A DNA stretch of 39,970 nucleotides from Actinomycetota bacterium (lineage in GTDB: Bacteria; Actinomycetota; Acidimicrobiia; Acidimicrobiales; Ilumatobacteraceae). The DNA is taken from NCBI GenBank assembly GCA_009924875.1, contig RFQQ01000002.1, forward strand, positions 1 through 39,970, written 5' to 3'. Shown one piece after another: positions 14,882 through 37,002 of this stretch. The first letter of the stretch is position 1; each line of letters starts with the position of its first letter. The position numbers were made by a program, and so were the translations under genes. The notes beneath the pieces were generated by a model. That model saw nothing but the letters and a program-made list of their open reading frames with translations, made no database searches and was not told where the DNA came from.

Positions 14882-15553
14882 GTGCCCCCCGGTCCCGCGC
14901 CGGTGGACCCCGCCGCGGTAGCCGACCGCCTCGCCGAGGTCAGGGAGCGAATCACCTCGGCTGGTGGCAACCGAGTCGCGGTGGTCGCAGTCACCAAGTC
15001 GTTCCCGCCTGAGGCGGTAGCCGCCGCGGTGGCCGCCGGAGCCGACGCGATCGGCGAGAACTACGCCCAGGAGCTCGACGCGAAGGCCGCCGCGGTGGCC
15101 GAGGCCGCCGAGGCTGGCTGTCCGGTCCACTTCATCGGGCAACTCCAGTCCAACAAGGTCAAGACCGTCGCCCGGCACGTCGGCGTCATTCAGTCCGTCG
15201 ACCGGCCCTCCCTCATCGTCGAGATCGCACGTCGGGCCCCGGGACTCGAGGTCATGATCCAGGTGTCGCCGGCCGACGAACCCGGCAAGGGCGGATGCGA
15301 TCCGGCCGGGGTGCCGGCCCTGGTCGAGACCGCCCGAGAGGCGGGGCTCGGGGTGCTCGGTCTGATGTGCGTCGCGCCGACCGTCGGCGGTGTCTCGGCG
15401 GCCGCACCGCATTTCGCGATGACGCGATCGCTGGTTGATCACCTTGGTCTCGAGCACTGCTCGATGGGTATGTCCGCGGATCTAGAGATCGCCGTAGGGG
15501 AGGGATCCACCATGGTTCGCATCGGCTCGGCGCTCTTCGGCTCTCGCGGCTAA
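14882..15553 (+). CDS. YggS/PLPBP family PLP-binding protein
   Basis: VAVTKSFPPEAV, GENYAQELDAKA, HFIGQLQSNKVK, SMGMSADLEIAVGEGSTMVRIGSALFG. Confidence 0.93.
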   Translation: MPPGPAPVDPAAVADRLAEVRERITSAGGNRVAVVAVTKSFPPEAVAAAVAAGADAIGENYAQELDAKAAAVAEAAEAGCPVHFIGQLQSNKVKTVARHVGVIQSVDRPSLIVEIARRAPGLEVMIQVSPADEPGKGGCDPAGVPALVETAREAGLGVLGLMCVAPTVGGVSAAAPHFAMTRSLVDHLGLEHCSMGMSADLEIAVGEGSTMVRIGSALFGSRG

Positions 15554-15615
15554 TCGTGGGTGCCCCGTCGCATCGGTGCCGGTGAACTAGCGTTCGGCCC
15601 GAGGAGGAGCGCCAG

Positions 15616-16083
15616 ATGTCGATGTGGAAGAAGACGATGGACTATCTCGGGCTCGGACCCGATGAGGCCTACGACGACTACGAGGACGATGACGTCGACG
15701 AGCGCGCCGAGTTCGACAGCGTCGACGAGGAGGAGGTCGTCACTACGACCCGGCCGGTGTTCCCGTCGCGTGGCGACACCGGGCCGATCCGGCGTCCGAG
15801 CGGGGAGGACCCTTCGGTCAAGGTGCGCACCGTTCGACCCTCTCCTCGCAACGCCGATCCGGTGACCGTTCGACCGCGAGGATTCGAGCAGGCCCAAGAG
15901 GTCGCCGACGCGTTCAAAGTCGGTCAGCCGGTCATCATGAATCTCGAGGGGTCCGATCGTGAGATCGCCCGACGTCTGATCGACTTCGCGAGCGGGCTCT
16001 GCTACGCCCTTGACGGCACGATGGAGAAGATCGCCAACGGCGTCTACCTGCTCAAGCCGTCCAATCACCCGGGCGGCGCCTGA
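15616..16083 (+). CDS. sepF: Cell division protein SepF
   Basis: MSMWKKTMDYLGLGPDEAY, acidic linker, VRPRGFEQAQEVADAFKVGQPVIMNLEG...RLIDFASGLCYALDGTMEKI. Confidence 0.95.
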   Translation: MSMWKKTMDYLGLGPDEAYDDYEDDDVDERAEFDSVDEEEVVTTTRPVFPSRGDTGPIRRPSGEDPSVKVRTVRPSPRNADPVTVRPRGFEQAQEVADAFKVGQPVIMNLEGSDREIARRLIDFASGLCYALDGTMEKIANGVYLLKPSNHPGGA

Positions 16084-16096
16084 GCCGAACCCCTGA

Positions 16097-16148
16097 GTGG
16101 GTGTCGAACCCACCGGTAGCATTCGGCGGGCCGTAACGACGGCCGAAT
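16097..16148 (+). promoter_or_regulatory. Two consecutive hairpins in the sepF-ileS gap
   Basis: GTGGGT-GTCGA-ACCCAC (16097-16113); ATTCG(gcgg)GCCGT-AACG-ACGGC-CGAAT (16121-16148). Confidence 0.55.
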
Positions 16149-16159
16149 GAGCGATCAAC

Positions 16160-19100
16160 GTGAAGTACCCCGACGTCCCCCCGCAGCCTGACCTGCCTTC
16201 CCTCGAGGGAGAGGTGCTCGCCGAATGGGAGCGCGACGACACCTTCCGACGCTCGGTGAATGCTCGCGACGCTGGCGCCGATGGGGAGAACGAGTTCGTC
16301 TTCTACGACGGCCCCCCGTTCGCCAACGGCCTGCCCCATTACGGCCACCTGCTCACCGGCTACGTGAAGGACGCGATCCCTCGGTATCAAACGATGCGGG
16401 GGCGCCGGGTTGAGCGCCGATTTGGGTGGGACTGCCATGGTCTTCCTGCTGAAGTCCAAGCCGAGAAGGAACTTGGCATCTCGGGCCACCCCGAGATCTC
16501 GGCCTTCGGCATCGACCGCTTCAACGACGCCTGTCGAACGAGCGTGTTGCAGTACACCAACGAATGGCGGGCCTACGTCAACCGACAGGCGCGCTGGGTG
16601 GACTTCGACAACGACTATAAGACCCTCGACCTCGACTACATGGAAAGCGTCATGTGGGCGTTCCGCCAGCTCTGGGATAAGGGCCTCATCTACGAGGGAT
16701 TCCGAGTGCTCGCGTACTGCTGGCGCTGCGAGACACCGCTGAGCAATACCGAGACTCGCATGGACGACGTCTACCGCGACCGGCAGGACCCTGCCGTCAC
16801 CGTCTGGTTCCGCCTCGAGACCGGCGAGCGCATCCTCGCGTGGACCACGACACCGTGGACCCTGCCGTCGAATCTGGCCCTCGCCGTCGGCCCGGAGATC
16901 GAGTACTCGGTCGTCGAGCTTGAGGGCGAGCGGTACATCATCGCCTCGGCCCGGCTCGAGGCCTACGCCGCTCAACTCGAGGGGGGAGAGGTAGTCCAGA
17001 CCGTCCTCGGCTCCGAACTCGTCGGGCGCGCCTACACGCCGGTCTTCGACTTCCTCGCCGACACCGAGAACGCCTTCCGAGTGCTGCCCGGAGAGTTCGT
17101 CACCACGGAGGACGGCACGGGCGTGGTGCACATGGCCCCGGGATTCGGCGAGGAGGACCAGACCGTCTGCTCAGCCGCCGGTATCCCGACGATCTGCCCC
17201 ATGGATGAGCGGGGCCGGTACACCGCGGAGATCTCCCGTTGGGTTGGAACGCACGTCTTCGAGGCGAACCCGGAGGTGATCAGGGCGCTCAAGGAGATTG
17301 GGGCGCTCGTCCGACACGACAGTTACGACCACGCCTATCCGCATTGCTGGCGCTGCGCCGAGCCGCTCGTATACCGCGCGATCTCATCGTGGTTCGTCGA
17401 GGTGACCCGGATCCGCGATCGGATGGTGGAGCTGAACGGCAGCATCAACTGGGTGCCCTCCCATGTGAAGGAGGGCAGCTTCGGTAAGTGGCTGGCGAAC
17501 GCGCGTGACTGGTCGATCTCGAGGAACCGCTTCTGGGGATCCCCGATCCCGGTCTGGGTCAGTGACGATCCGGCCTATCCGCGCACCGATGTCTACGGCT
17601 CGATCGCCGAACTCGAAGCCGACTTCGGTGTGGAGGTGCGCGATCTCCACCGCCCGGTCATCGACCAGCTGGTTCGAGCGAATCCTGATGATCCGACCGG
17701 TCGCTCCATGATGCGGCGCGTCCCCGAGGTGCTCGACTGCTGGTTCGAGTCGGGATCGATGCCCTTCGCCCAGGTCCACTACCCCTTCGAGAACGCGGAG
17801 TGGTTCGAGCACCACTATCCCGGTGACTTCATCGTGGAGTACCTCGGCCAGACTCGCGGGTGGTTCTACACGATGCACGTCCTCGCGACCGCGCTGTTCG
17901 ATCGTCCGGCATTCGAGAACTGCGTGAGCCACGGAATCGTGCTCGGTGACGATGGCTCCAAGATGTCGAAGTCGCTGCGGAACTATCCGGATCCGAATCA
18001 GATGTTCGACGCACACGGCTCGGATGCGATGCGCTGGTACCTGCTGTCGTCCCCGATCCTGAGGGGTCTGGACTTCTCGGTATCGGAGACCGGAATCCGA
18101 GACACCGTGCGACGCGTGGTGCTGCCGTTCTGGAACGCCTATTACTTCCTCACGCTCTACGCCCGCGCGGCCGGGCTCGAGGGGGTTGAGCGAACCGATC
18201 AAACCGATGTCCTCGACCGGTACCTGCTCGGAGAACTGAACCGTCTCGTGGCCGAATCGACCACCGCGCTCGACGCCTATGACCTCTACGGTGCGTGCGA
18301 GACGGTGGAGCGATTCCTCGACACGCTCACCAACTGGTACATCCGTCGTAGCCGAGAGCGGTTCTGGGAGGGCAATCAGGACGCGATCGACACCCTGCAC
18401 ACGGCGATGGTGACGCTCTGTCGGGTCGCCGCGCCGCTGCTGCCACTTATCGCCGAGCACATCCACCAGGGGTTGACCGGCGCGGACAGCGTGCACCTTC
18501 TCGACTGGCCAAATGCCGAGGGGTTCCCGGTTGACGAGGAGCTGGCCCGGGGGATGGCGCTCGTCCGAGACGCCTGCTCGACACTGCTGTCTCTTCGCAA
18601 GGCCGAGGGGCTCCGCGTCCGCCTGCCACTCGCCTCGGCGACGGTCGCGACGCCGGACGCAGCAGCACTCGGCCCGCATCTGGCGATCATCCGTGATGAG
18701 CTCAATCTCAAAGACATCTTCCTCACGGACGATGTCGCCGCGCACGGTCGGAGGGAACTCGTTCTGAATCCGAAGGCGCTCGGCCCGCGACTCGGGGGCG
18801 CCACCCAAGAGGTCATCGGCGCTCACAAACGCGGGGACTGGTCGGAGACACCGACGGGCGTTCGAGTGGGTGGCCATGATCTCGAACCAGGGGAGTTCGA
18901 CTTCCGATTGGTGTCGGCCGCTGATGGTGCGGCGGCCACGCTTCCCCGTGACGGGGGCATCGTCGTGCTCGATACCAACGTCACCCCCGAGCTTGAGATC
19001 GAGGGAGTGGCGCGTGACCTCATCCGCAGAGTCCAGCAGGAGCGCCGCGAGGCGGGGCTGGATGTGAGTGACCGGATCCGCTTGACCGTCTCCGGACCCG

Positions 19101-23256: not shown

Positions 23257-23709
23257 ATGGATGAGAACGGTGGAACCGAGTTGGTGTCCGGCGGAGGAGA
23301 GGACACCGAGGTGCCCGACACGGGTTCGGTGACCGAGCCGGCCAAGGTCATGAGGATCGGCTCGATGGTCAAGCAGCTCCTTGAGGAGGTGCGTCAAGCC
23401 CCGCTCGATGAGGCGAGCCGTGAGCGGTTGGCCGAGGTGTATGAGCGATCGATCGTGGAGTTATCCGAGGCGCTCTCCTCTGATCTCCAAGACGAATTAC
23501 GGATTTTGACTCTTCCCTTCGAGGAGGGGGAGGTGCCCTCCGAAGGTGAGCTCCGGGTCGCGCAGGCCCAATTGGTCGGCTGGCTCGAGGGGCTCTTCCA
23601 CGGGATTCAGGCGACGCTGTTCGCGCAGCAACTCGCCGCGCGACAGCAACTCGAGCAGATTCGGCAGTTGCCCCAGGCCCCATCAGATCGGCCCGGAACG
23701 TACCTCTGA
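23257..23709 (+). CDS. bpa: Bacterial proteasome activator Bpa/PafE-like (DUF2587)
   Basis: MVKQLLEEVRQAPLDEASRERLAEVYERSIVELSEALSSDLQDEL...; C-terminal GTYL resembling the GQYL docking motif. Confidence 0.85.
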   Translation: MDENGGTELVSGGGEDTEVPDTGSVTEPAKVMRIGSMVKQLLEEVRQAPLDEASRERLAEVYERSIVELSEALSSDLQDELRILTLPFEEGEVPSEGELRVAQAQLVGWLEGLFHGIQATLFAQQLAARQQLEQIRQLPQAPSDRPGTYL

Positions 23710-30776: not shown

Positions 30777-31103
30777 GTGACGTCGCCGGCCGACAAGCTC
30801 CCGATCAAAATGCTCAATGACCGCCTGCTCGTGCGGATCGGTCGTGACGATGGAGAGCGCCGGTCATCGGGTGGCATCCTCATTCCGGCCACCGCACAGA
30901 TGGCGAAGCGCCTCATCTGGGCTGAGGTCGTTGCCCTCGGGCAGAACGTCCGCGCGGCGGAGGTCGGCGACCTCGTGCTCTTCTCTCCCGACGATCGCTA
31001 CGAGGTCGAGGTCCAAGGCGAGGACCTCATCATGTTGCGCGAGCGCGACCTTCACGCCGTCGCCGCTGAGCGGATCGAGGCGTCGACCGGCCTCTACCTC
31101 TAG
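30777..31103 (+). CDS. GroES/Cpn10-family protein with C-terminal extension ending STGLYL
   Basis: LPIKMLNDRLLVRIG...SSGGILIPATAQ...GDLVLFSPDDRYEVEVQGEDLIMLRERDLHAVAAERIEASTGLYL*. Confidence 0.88.
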   Translation: MTSPADKLPIKMLNDRLLVRIGRDDGERRSSGGILIPATAQMAKRLIWAEVVALGQNVRAAEVGDLVLFSPDDRYEVEVQGEDLIMLRERDLHAVAAERIEASTGLYL

Positions 31104-32988: not shown

Positions 32989-33626
32989 GCGCGATCGGCC
33001 CGACCTACGTGGTTCCTGGTCCGCGAGACCTCATCGAGGTGGTTGGCCCTGACGCTGTTACTTACCTGCACAGCCAGCTGTCCCAAGACATCGGCTCGAT
33101 GGCGGTTGGCGACCGAGCCCTCAGCCTCGTGCTCGAACCGGACGGGCGGGTGTGCGCCCCGGTCGGGGTGTCGCGCGAGGGAGACGACCGCATCGTCCTC
33201 GATGTCGATCCGGGTTTCGGCGAGTCGGTCGCAGCCCGCCTGCTCCGATTCCGGTTGCGCACCGATGCCGAGATCACACTGATCGCTGCTGGGGGTCACC
33301 GCAATGGAGCGGAGGAGGAGTCACGGATCGTCGACGGTTGGCCGGCGCTCGGGAGCGAGATCATTCAGGGTGAGACGCTCGCCGCGGAGACCGGCCTCAC
33401 CGACGTCGCTGTCTCCTTCACCAAGGGGTGCTATCCGGGTCAGGAACTGGTGGAGCGGATGGATTCCCGCGGTTCGATTCCACCTCGTCGGATCGTCCGC
33501 GTCCGCGTCGAGTCGGGGACGCTCGTCGGGTCCTCCGTGATCCGCGATGGCGCCGAGGTCGGTGAGGTCACCAGCGTGGTTGGCGAGCACGCTCTCGCGC
33601 GTGTCGGGCGGACCTTCAGCGACTGA
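32985..33626 (+). CDS. YgfZ/GcvT folate-binding family protein
   Basis: VTYLHSQLSQDI and KGCYPGQELVERMDSRG signature. Confidence 0.92.
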   Translation: MSAIGPTYVVPGPRDLIEVVGPDAVTYLHSQLSQDIGSMAVGDRALSLVLEPDGRVCAPVGVSREGDDRIVLDVDPGFGESVAARLLRFRLRTDAEITLIAAGGHRNGAEEESRIVDGWPALGSEIIQGETLAAETGLTDVAVSFTKGCYPGQELVERMDSRGSIPPRRIVRVRVESGTLVGSSVIRDGAEVGEVTSVVGEHALARVGRTFSD

Positions 33627-34263
33627 GACGGAGCGCCGACACCTGCGACCACAGCAGGAGAGCCCCGACCACGACCAAAGAGCGCCACGCCGCGCTCTGA
33701 GCCGCCCACACGATGCCGGCCGAGGTGACGGTCGCGCTGAGACCGATCACCACCCGCGCCGCCGACGGGCCGAGTAGGGGAGTTACGGCGTGAGAGACCA
33801 GGTGGCCGCCGTCAAGCGGCCAGAGCGGGATCAGGTTCGCGGTGCCGATGACGACCCCTGCCCACCAGATCGCGGTCGCGATACCACTCGCTGAGATCGC
33901 GTCGATGTCGAGGGGATGGGCGGCCCACGGAAGTAGGCAAATCCAGCCTGCTGCGATGTGGGCGGCCGGGCCGGCCGCCGAGAGCGCCATCCGGCCACGG
34001 GTGGCGATGGCGCGACCGGGTTGGAACGAGGTGTAGCCGACCATGAAACCGAGGGAGATCGAGGCCTCCGCGCCAAGCCGTCGGGCGACAAGGGCGTGAC
34101 CGAGTTCGTGAATCACGGTGAACGCGGCGAGTGAGATGGCGAGCACGAGGCCCTCTGGGCCCGGATCAAGCCCGAAGACGATGAGGAGGAAAAACCAGAA
34201 CCCCGAGGTCGCGCGGACCGGGAAGCCGAGCAGCGCGGCCCGCCGTTCGCCACTCGGAGCCAT
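33616..34263 (-). CDS. Site-2 protease (M50) family membrane metalloprotease
   Basis: FTVIHELGHALVARRLG (HExxH) and NLIPLWPLDGGHLVSH; polytopic. Confidence 0.92.
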   Translation of the reverse strand: MAPSGERRAALLGFPVRATSGFWFFLLIVFGLDPGPEGLVLAISLAAFTVIHELGHALVARRLGAEASISLGFMVGYTSFQPGRAIATRGRMALSAAGPAAHIAAGWICLLPWAAHPLDIDAISASGIATAIWWAGVVIGTANLIPLWPLDGGHLVSHAVTPLLGPSAARVVIGLSATVTSAGIVWAAQSAAWRSLVVVGALLLWSQVSALRLSR

Positions 34264-34347
34264 GTCCGAACCGTACCCGCACCGCCGATTCCGATCATCG
34301 CTACGGCGGTGGTCTCCTCGAGGGACTCGCTCGTAGACTCGCCAGAC

Positions 34348-37002
34348 GTGCCCTACGTCTACGCATTTGATCACGCCCACCGCAAGCCACCCATGTCCTA
34401 CAAGGACCTCCTCGGTGGAAAGGGGGCGAACCTTGCCGAGATGACGACCGTGCTCGGTCTTCCGGTGCCCCCTGGGTTCACGGTGTCGACCGACGCCTGT
34501 CGCGCCTACATGCACGGCGGGTGGCCCGATGGCCTCGACGCGGAGGTGACCCGTCACGTCGCGAAACTCGAGAAGACGATGGGTCGTCGACTCGGCGACG
34601 CGAAGGATCCGCTGCTCGTCAGCGTGCGCTCGGGAGCGAAGTTCTCGATGCCGGGGATGATGGACACCGTCTTGAACCTCGGTCTCAACGACCGCAGCGT
34701 CGTCGGTCTCGCCTCGGTCACCGGCGACGAGCGATTCGCGTACGACTCCTACCGCCGTTTCATCGCGATGTACGGGCGCATCGTCCTCGGTGTCGACGGC
34801 GAGGTGTTCGAGCACCCCCTCGAGGCGGCCAAGGCCAAGGCGGGCACCGCGAACGACGCGGATCTCGACGCCGCTGCGCTGAAGGCGCTCGTCAAGACCT
34901 ACCTCGCTGCCGTCCGCCGCGCGACCGGCGCCCCGTTCCCGCAGGATCCGCGTGCCCAGCTCGATGGCGCGATCGAAGCGGTGTTCCGTTCGTGGAACGG
35001 CGCCCGAGCGATCGCCTACCGAGTTCGCGAGAAGATCAGTCACGAACTCGGCACCGCCGTCAACGTGCAGACGATGGTCTTCGGCAACCGTGACGACAAC
35101 TCGGGAACCGGCGTCGGGTTCACCCGCAACGCCGCGACCGGTGACAACCGCCCCTATGGCGACTTCCTCGTCAATGCCCAGGGTGAGGACGTCGTCGCGG
35201 GAATCCGCAACACCCTCGGCCTTGACGACATGAAGCGCCTCTTCCCGAAGATCCACGCTGACCTCCTCAAGATCTTCAAGCGACTCGAGGAGCACTACAC
35301 CGACATGTGCGATACCGAGTTCACCATTGAGCAGGGCCGTCTCTGGATGCTGCAGACCCGCGTCGGCAAGCGGACCGGGGCCGCGGCCTTGAAGATGGCG
35401 GTCGACATGACCAAGGGCACCGACGGCGTGAAGCGCAAGTCGTGGAAGATCTCGCGTGAGGAGGCCGTCATGCGGGTCACCGCCGAGCACCTCGAGTCGG
35501 TGCTCCACCCGCAGTTCTCCAAGAAGTCGACGGCGATCGCGAAGGGCCTCGGAGCTTCTCCCGGCGCCGCGGTCGGCCGCGTCTACCTGACCGCCGATGA
35601 TGCCGAAGCAGCGGCCAAGCGAGGCGAGAAGGTGATCCTCGTGCGGAGCGAGACGAGCCCCGAGGACGTCCACGGCATGATGGTCGCCCAAGGAATCCTC
35701 ACCTCCCGTGGCGGCCTCGTGAGCCACGCGGCGGTCGTCGCTCGAGGCTGGGGAACCCCAGCGGTCGTCGGCGCCGAGCAGGTTCGCATCGAGGGTCGGC
35801 AGTTCAGCGTCGGCAACACCGTGGTGAAGCAGGGCGACGTCATCTCGATCGACGGCCACACCGGGGAGATCATGCTCGGCGCGCTTGAGATGGCGAACGC
35901 GAAGCCGCCGAAGGAGTACGACGTCATCCTCTCGTGGGCCGACGTCATCCGGAAGGGTCATCTCGCCGTGCGCGCGAACGCCGATACCGGCGCCGATGCC
36001 GCGGTCGCGCGTGAGAAGGGAGCCGAGGGAATCGGTCTCTGCCGGACCGAGCACATGTTCCTCGCCCCCGACCGATTGCCGATCGTGCGCGCGATGATCC
36101 TCGCCGACACTCCTCGCAAGGAGGCCAAGGCGCTCGAGCAACTTCGCGTGGCGCAGCAGGCCGACTTCGAGGAGATCCTCGAGGCGATGGATGGCCTCCC
36201 GGTCACCGTCCGCCTGCTCGATCCTCCGTTGCACGAGTTCCTCCCCTCAGTGGAGGAGTTGAAGGTCAAGGCGGCCAAGCGGGGTCTCTCCGCCAAGGAG
36301 CAGAAGCTGCTCGCCGCTGCGGAGTCCTGGGCCGAGCACAACCCGATGATCGGTACCCGCGGTGTTCGCCTCGGAGTGATCAAGCCGGGTCTCTACGCCA
36401 TGCAGGTACGGGCGCTGCTTGACGCCGCCGCCAAGCTTCGTGAGGCGGGTGGGCGTCCGATCGTCGAGATCATGATTCCGCTCACCGTCACCCGCGAGGA
36501 GCTGGCGCTGGCCCGTTCCTGGGTGCAGGAGGAGGTCGACGCCGCGCTCAAGGGCATGCGCCGTAAGCCGCACATCTCGATCGGCACGATGGTCGAGACC
36601 CCGCGGGCCGCGGTGCGCGCCGACGAGATCGCCGAGGCCGCCGACTTCTTCTCCTTCGGCACGAACGACCTCACCCAGCTGACCTTCGGCTTCAGCCGCG
36701 ATGATGTCGAGAGCCGGATGATGCCGGCCTATCTCGAGCAGGGCCTGTTGAAGCGGAATCCGTTCGACACCATCGACCAGTCGGGTGTCGGCGACCTCGT
36801 TCGCCTCGGTGCCGAGCGTGGACGTTCCACCAAGCCCGATCTGAAGCTCGGCGTGTGCGGTGAGCACGGTGGCGACCCCGAGTCGATCGATCTTTTCTAC
36901 CGACTCGGTCTCGATTACGTGAGTTGCTCGCCGTTCCGCGTGCCGATCGCGCGCCTCTCCGCCGCGCAGGCGATCGTCGGCGCGAGCGACTCACAGAAGT
37001 GA
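34348..37002 (+). CDS. ppdK: Pyruvate, phosphate dikinase
   Basis: LLGGKGANLAEMT, VRSGAKFSMPGMMDTVLNLGLN, GGLVSHAAVVARGWGTPAVVG, EGIGLCRTEHMF, GTNDLTQLTFGFSRDD. Confidence 0.97.
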   Translation: MPYVYAFDHAHRKPPMSYKDLLGGKGANLAEMTTVLGLPVPPGFTVSTDACRAYMHGGWPDGLDAEVTRHVAKLEKTMGRRLGDAKDPLLVSVRSGAKFSMPGMMDTVLNLGLNDRSVVGLASVTGDERFAYDSYRRFIAMYGRIVLGVDGEVFEHPLEAAKAKAGTANDADLDAAALKALVKTYLAAVRRATGAPFPQDPRAQLDGAIEAVFRSWNGARAIAYRVREKISHELGTAVNVQTMVFGNRDDNSGTGVGFTRNAATGDNRPYGDFLVNAQGEDVVAGIRNTLGLDDMKRLFPKIHADLLKIFKRLEEHYTDMCDTEFTIEQGRLWMLQTRVGKRTGAAALKMAVDMTKGTDGVKRKSWKISREEAVMRVTAEHLESVLHPQFSKKSTAIAKGLGASPGAAVGRVYLTADDAEAAAKRGEKVILVRSETSPEDVHGMMVAQGILTSRGGLVSHAAVVARGWGTPAVVGAEQVRIEGRQFSVGNTVVKQGDVISIDGHTGEIMLGALEMANAKPPKEYDVILSWADVIRKGHLAVRANADTGADAAVAREKGAEGIGLCRTEHMFLAPDRLPIVRAMILADTPRKEAKALEQLRVAQQADFEEILEAMDGLPVTVRLLDPPLHEFLPSVEELKVKAAKRGLSAKEQKLLAAAESWAEHNPMIGTRGVRLGVIKPGLYAMQVRALLDAAAKLREAGGRPIVEIMIPLTVTREELALARSWVQEEVDAALKGMRRKPHISIGTMVETPRAAVRADEIAEAADFFSFGTNDLTQLTFGFSRDDVESRMMPAYLEQGLLKRNPFDTIDQSGVGDLVRLGAERGRSTKPDLKLGVCGEHGGDPESIDLFYRLGLDYVSCSPFRVPIARLSAAQAIVGASDSQK

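Follow-up and report, generated by a model that had tools for sequence, protein, structure and literature searches.

The known partners of the bacterial 20S proteasome are few and comprise ARC/Mpa, Bpa/PafE, and Cpa. A candidate for a further partner, a GroES-like (Cpn10-fold) protein with a C-terminal tail of the kind that docks ARC/Mpa and Bpa/PafE to the proteasome, is encoded in a stretch of 39,970 nucleotides (the window) from a member of the Ilumatobacteraceae (Actinomycetota; Acidimicrobiales; assembly GCA_009924875.1, contig RFQQ01000002.1). Docking-tail caps and a protease cap formed by co-chaperonins are known already, whereas a GroES-fold interactor of the 20S proteasome is undescribed in the papers found. 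Text searches returned no paper on such an interactor, with most subscription journals outside their coverage and a report possible there, and the main text of ProEnd (PMC11475706) does not mention GroES. Bpa was discovered in a search for proteins with a C-terminal HbYX motif (hydrophobic residue, tyrosine, any residue) that co-occur with prcBA, which was seeded on genes of Mycobacterium tuberculosis (PMC4254994). Because the sampled mycobacterium-like genomes lack the GroES-like family, such a screen would have missed it.

Like Bpa/PafE (PF10759), the GroES-like protein is a candidate for an ATP-independent ring, carries a G-x-Y-L tail, is nested among 20S-bearing actinobacteria, and is encoded apart from prcBA, but Bpa is a dodecamer of a different fold, whereas the GroES-like protein has the GroES barrel. 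The resemblance to the tails of ARC/Mpa, which a preliminary description made from the DNA alone had pointed out, holds within the genome itself, where ARC ends in STGQYL, the GroES-like protein in STGLYL, and Bpa in PGTYL; ARC is a hexameric ATPase, whereas the GroES-like protein has no ATPase domain. With canonical GroES/Cpn10 (e.g., 1p3h), it shares the beta-barrel and the mobile loop but differs in its roof (9 instead of 17–19 residues), in the additional linker and GxYL tail, and in falling into a separate score class of a hidden Markov model (HMM).

We know of no GxYL tail involved in the cap that co-chaperonins form on chloroplast ClpP and of no proteasome tail on gp31 of phage T4, both of which resemble the GroES-like protein in other respects. 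The co-chaperonins Cpn11/20/23 cap ClpP (PDB 7ekq; PMC8889267) and repress it in vitro (PMC12282863), so that a co-chaperonin fold caps a self-compartmentalized protease, as is proposed here; their partner is ClpP rather than the 20S proteasome, and their site of action is an algal plastid. In T4 gp31, which forms a heptameric GroES-like ring, the roof loops are missing and the opening is wider as a result (PMC6318259). The heptamer is only presumed for the GroES-like protein, and gp31 is a phage protein that serves GroEL and matches structurally with just 15% identity.

A family of GroES-like proteins with an invariant tail

The gene product ends in HAVAAERIEASTGLYL*, with STGLYL as its last residues, and matches Cpn10 (PF00166) with 55.9 bits (cut-off, 21.1), which bears out the claim that a Cpn10 domain runs on into an L-Y-L/GxYL-type tail (Table 1). 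Cpn10 is the sole Pfam family matched, there is no homology to Bpa, and every NCBIfam model of GroES stays below its cut-off (at best 41 bits versus 96). The top match in a sequence search of the PDB is Cpn20 of 7ekq; another genome of the same genus encodes a homolog of 108 amino acids with 99% identity. Bpa with its GTYL end is encoded in the same window, as the preliminary description had stated.

Table 1. Features of the window that concern the GroES-like protein and Bpa.
Feature	Position	Strand	Basis
GroES-like (Cpn10-fold) protein, 108 aa, GTG start, TAG stop	30777..31103	+	Translation and Pfam
Cpn10 beta-barrel domain, residues 10–95	30804..31061	+	PF00166, AlphaFold2, Foldseek
GroEL-type mobile loop core GGILIPATA, residues 32–40	30870..30896	+	Near-invariant in family
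Cropped roof, 9 residues (56–64)	30942..30968	+	17–19 residues in canonical GroES
Variable linker from barrel to tail, residues 96–104	31062..31088	+	Family-wide variation in length and sequence
G-L-Y-L tail at the C-terminus, of the type that docks in proteasome alpha pockets	31089..31100	+	Family conservation
Bpa (bacterial proteasome activator), ends PGTYL	~23257..23709	+	PF10759, E 7.9e-63; start codon picked by eye

Homologs were collected from 298 genomes of Actinomycetota (phylum sample) and 149 genomes of an order-level sample, a few of which are common to both. In the phylum sample, the E-values are distributed bimodally; 85 of the 298 genomes have a match below 1e-20, and all other matches lie above 6e-9 and behave like canonical GroES. 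A total of 187 family members were examined, to which these genomes contribute 85, the second sample contributes 20, and loci found either through RERDxHAV (a conserved stretch outside the tail that serves as a tail-independent finder) or in plasmid and phage records contribute 82. An HMM built from the 85 members scores all 187 with at least 121 bits and 13 canonical GroES with at most 65 bits. By sequence, the GroES-like proteins thus form a distinct actinobacterial family, apart from canonical GroES. Named carriers include Nonomuraea gerenzanensis and Nocardia pseudobrasiliensis.

A G-x-Y-[L/I] end is present in 186 of the 187 members (one GLYI counted), in line with the statement in the preliminary description that orphan actinobacterial GroES-like proteins have similar tails. 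It occurs as G[LQ]Y[LI] in 85/85 members of the phylum sample, as GLYL in 82/82 of the RERDxHAV, plasmid, and phage loci, and as GxYL in 19/20 members of the second sample, GMYL and GPYL among them. The 182 unique sequences end in GLYL (168), GQYL (11), GMYL, GPYL, or GLYI (one each); glycine at position −4 and tyrosine at position −2 are invariant (100%), leucine at position −1 reaches 99.5%, and position −3 varies. Ahead of position −5, the residues are highly variable in sequence and spacing. An invariant tail after a variable stretch is typical of a short docking motif that is flexibly tethered, and the free third position between fixed glycine and tyrosine is consistent with the review-based statement that the glutamine of GQYL is not essential in mycobacterial activators (PMC12288473). 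The members of the f20 type, considered for a time as tail-less, end in PGQYL; their alignments had stopped at residues 97–99.

As had been claimed, the canonical GroES examined are free of such a tail. A second Cpn10 match is present in most of the complete carriers; of these second proteins, the three examined (in G230, G255, and G163) end normally, with no tail. The missing canonical groES in the assembly that contains the window is uninformative, because this assembly is only 58% complete.

In the entire assembly (0.99 Mb), the word G-x-Y-L-stop occurs at three places only, namely at the ends of Bpa (GTYL), the GroES-like protein (GLYL), and ARC (STGQYL), after the removal of phenylalanine and tryptophan look-alikes from six raw DNA matches. 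In three other genomes that are complete or nearly so (G078, G061, and G200), there are again just three words, at ARC, Bpa, and the GroES-like protein, as assigned by position and, for the end of ARC, by adjacency to the 20S genes. One genome (G111) has an extra word at the end of a long, apparently unrelated open frame (ITGYYL). Another (G031), in which Bpa ends in PGTYI, has two, one in an open stretch of 64 codons and the other in no G-x-Y-L-ending open frame of at least 25 codons. In a genome with more A+T in its codon use (G016), the raw matches are too many to be informative. Word counts and family conservation together led us to reject a chance origin of the tail.

Co-occurrence with the 20S proteasome

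The preliminary description had suggested testing whether the GxYL tail co-occurs with prcBA and had regarded an equal presence of the tail in genomes lacking 20S as evidence to the contrary. In the phylum sample, all 85 carriers possess a 20S proteasome, and the family is present in 0/171 genomes without 20S (Fisher's test, 6e-43); the order-level sample yields 69/69 and 0/58 (3e-23), with both Fisher values inflated by shared phylogeny. Among the 298 and 149 genomes, a few of them shared, there is no tailed family member in a genome without 20S, so that the contrary case did not arise and the preliminary interpretation is supported. The four genomes with a single weak match to PF00227 were counted as lacking it.

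Four mixed families of genomes were used to control the Fisher values for kinship. The gene is present in 11/11 20S-bearing genomes and 0/3 genomes without 20S in family f22, in 4/4 and 0/1 in family f37, in 4/7 and 0/3 of those listed in family f43, and in 1/1 and 0/3 of those listed in family f75. The exact probabilities multiply to approximately 2e-5 (calculated by hand), a value for which the three f22 genomes that belong to a single genus still count as independent. Bpa is likewise nested in 20S-bearing genomes (115/115), and nine 20S-bearing carriers of the GroES-like protein are without Bpa.

Two peculiarities of the proteasome genes were encountered in the samples. In the four genomes with a lone weak PF00227 match (G098, G182, G242, and G076), the second subunit is absent; the matches are proteasome-like proteins that do not amount to an alpha/beta pair of a 20S proteasome. 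Two other genomes (G396 and G121) have four PF00227 matches each, suggesting two sets of 20S genes per genome.

A roofless barrel with a conserved mobile loop

In an AlphaFold2 model of the monomer (61 homologs), the barrel is predicted with a pLDDT (predicted local distance difference test) of mostly 70–92, whereas the mobile-loop region is predicted to be disordered (40–52) and the tail (residues 101–108) is of low confidence (approximately 48). The top structural matches in the PDB are Cpn10/GroES, with Cpn10 of M. tuberculosis (1p3h) as the best (Foldseek).

The region of the roof hairpin has 9 residues in 187/187 family members and 17–19 in the 13 canonical GroES. The core of the mobile loop, G-[I/L]-[L/V/I]-I-P-A-T-A, is near-invariant across the family. 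The loop with its hydrophobic tripeptide of the GroEL-binding type has been kept, whereas the beta-hairpin that closes the dome has not. The roof deletion, the retained GroEL-type loop, and the precedent of chloroplast ClpP had no part in the preliminary description.

Possible modes of action

We propose, with a probability of roughly 0.7, that the GroES-like protein forms a roofless ring whose tails occupy the alpha pockets of the 20S proteasome and that controls its gate. Its subunits would assemble into a ring, presumably a heptamer as in other Cpn10 proteins, which the fold renders quite probable, and this ring would share its axis with the alpha-ring on which it sits, the homoheptamer of the actinobacterial 20S proteasome. 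The G-x-Y-L of each subunit would enter the pocket between neighboring alpha-subunits via the flexible linker, as it does in ARC/Mpa and Bpa; such docking is strongly suggested by the tail and its distribution and seems very probable. The gate would be controlled without ATP. Lacking roof hairpins, the ring would have a channel open along its axis, as in T4 gp31, and may be a pore-like entry cap. That it opens the gate rather than blocks it is a guess, slightly favored by the type of tail and the open roof. The retained mobile loop makes binding of GroEL possible, and hence a coupler or a switch; the ring might bind GroEL in competition with the 20S proteasome or hand over failed substrates, although we consider an involvement of GroEL somewhat doubtful.

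Several points weigh against a gate-controlling ring. The gene is linked neither to prcBA nor to groEL, and its neighbors vary by lineage; the Bpa gene is also located far from the proteasome locus (PMC4254994). The family is missing from 42 of the 127 20S-bearing genomes in the phylum sample, all sampled mycobacterium-like ones included, which indicates that the protein is dispensable for 20S carriage; the order-level sample contains 22 20S-bearing genomes without it. The kinship among the genomes weakens the Fisher values as described above. One member (L174; G376:C698), from a draft of 700 contigs, is without the tail, as its frame continues into downstream sequence; this may reflect a sequencing frameshift or a true loss.

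The main functional alternative is an inhibitory lid that occupies the alpha pockets, blocks ARC and Bpa, and spares substrates under some condition. Chloroplast Cpn11/20/23 provides a precedent by capping and repressing ClpP (PMC12282863; title of a reference cited in PMC8889267), as does Bpa, which can compete with and inhibit Mpa-dependent degradation (PMC4254994), but the tail of the GroES-like protein belongs to the kind that opens gates, and the missing roof suits a channel better than a plug, which makes a lid unlikely. A coupler, in which the loops bind GroEL and the tails bind the 20S proteasome, as a bridge or as an alternating switch that directs unfoldable clients to the proteasome, appears equally unlikely. 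It would draw on the near-invariant core of the mobile loop, the seven-fold symmetry that GroEL and the 20S proteasome are generally known to share, and the opening that a deleted roof would leave (by comparison with gp31; PMC6318259), but the gene is not co-localized with groEL, and simultaneous bridging would be impossible if the ring had its loops and C-termini on one and the same side. Physical coupling, with failed clients passing through the roofless ring or switching from cage to protease, is a slightly weaker prospect still.

Assembly factors that depend on HbYX motifs are known (PMC4254994), and a seven-fold ring would lend itself to templating a seven-fold alpha-ring. By contrast, bacterial 20S proteasomes assemble spontaneously when expressed in Escherichia coli (PMC13022661), and 42 of the 127 20S-bearing genomes lack the GroES-like protein, so that we regard a role in templating the alpha-ring, akin to that of assembly chaperones with HbYX motifs in archaea and eukaryotes, as improbable. 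Still more improbable is an ordinary second co-chaperonin of GroEL whose tail aids ring assembly and is unrelated to the proteasome. The retained mobile loop, the retained GroES barrel, and the lack of gene linkage to the proteasome agree with it, but it leaves unexplained the strict nesting in 20S-bearing genomes, the identity of the tail with those of ARC and Bpa, and the variable linker before an invariant tail.

If a gate-controlling ring of GroES fold exists, it would be symmetry-matched to the alpha-ring of the 20S proteasome, provide organisms such as Streptomyces with a further means of supplying the proteasome or shutting it, and connect folding directly with degradation. If the ring were a coupler, a hand-over from chaperonin to proteasome would be widespread in Streptomyces-like and other actinobacteria.

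Gene neighborhood and additional observations

In Acidimicrobiales-like loci, the gene for the GroES-like protein is located upstream of hisI-trpE-ygfZ, with hisI adjoining in 39/82 loci (names assigned by reading). It lies downstream of bcp-like and DUF3618-like genes (named by eye) in Streptomyces-like loci and some others. Operon logic was discarded as a guide to the partner, because the neighbors depend on the lineage and indicate none. Bpa and the GroES-like gene are separated by approximately 7–8 kb in the source genus and, in several genomes of the order, by 30–45 kb, which is a loose synteny of two proteins with proteasome tails (seen in the window, G067:C114, and G120:C119).

A phage origin of the gene was rejected. 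The sole good phage match (MT835744.1; L173, titled ‘Bacteriophage sp.’, positions 15026–16215) looks like a fragment of a host chromosome, since bcp-like and DUF3618-like genes lie beside the GroES-like gene as they do in actinobacterial chromosomes. The titles of five other records do not fit typical actinobacterial members, namely three titled as metagenome-assembled genomes of Bifidobacterium breve (L096, L139, and L164), one as Acidobacteria (L132), and one as Thermoanaerobacterales (L167); all five are probably mislabeled metagenome-assembled genomes.

Elsewhere in the window, a long open reading frame on the minus strand (33616–36234) runs antisense to a gene (34309–37002) that looks like pyruvate phosphate dikinase. 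The frame joins an apparent membrane metalloprotease with a HELGHAL motif, whose real start probably lies well inside it.
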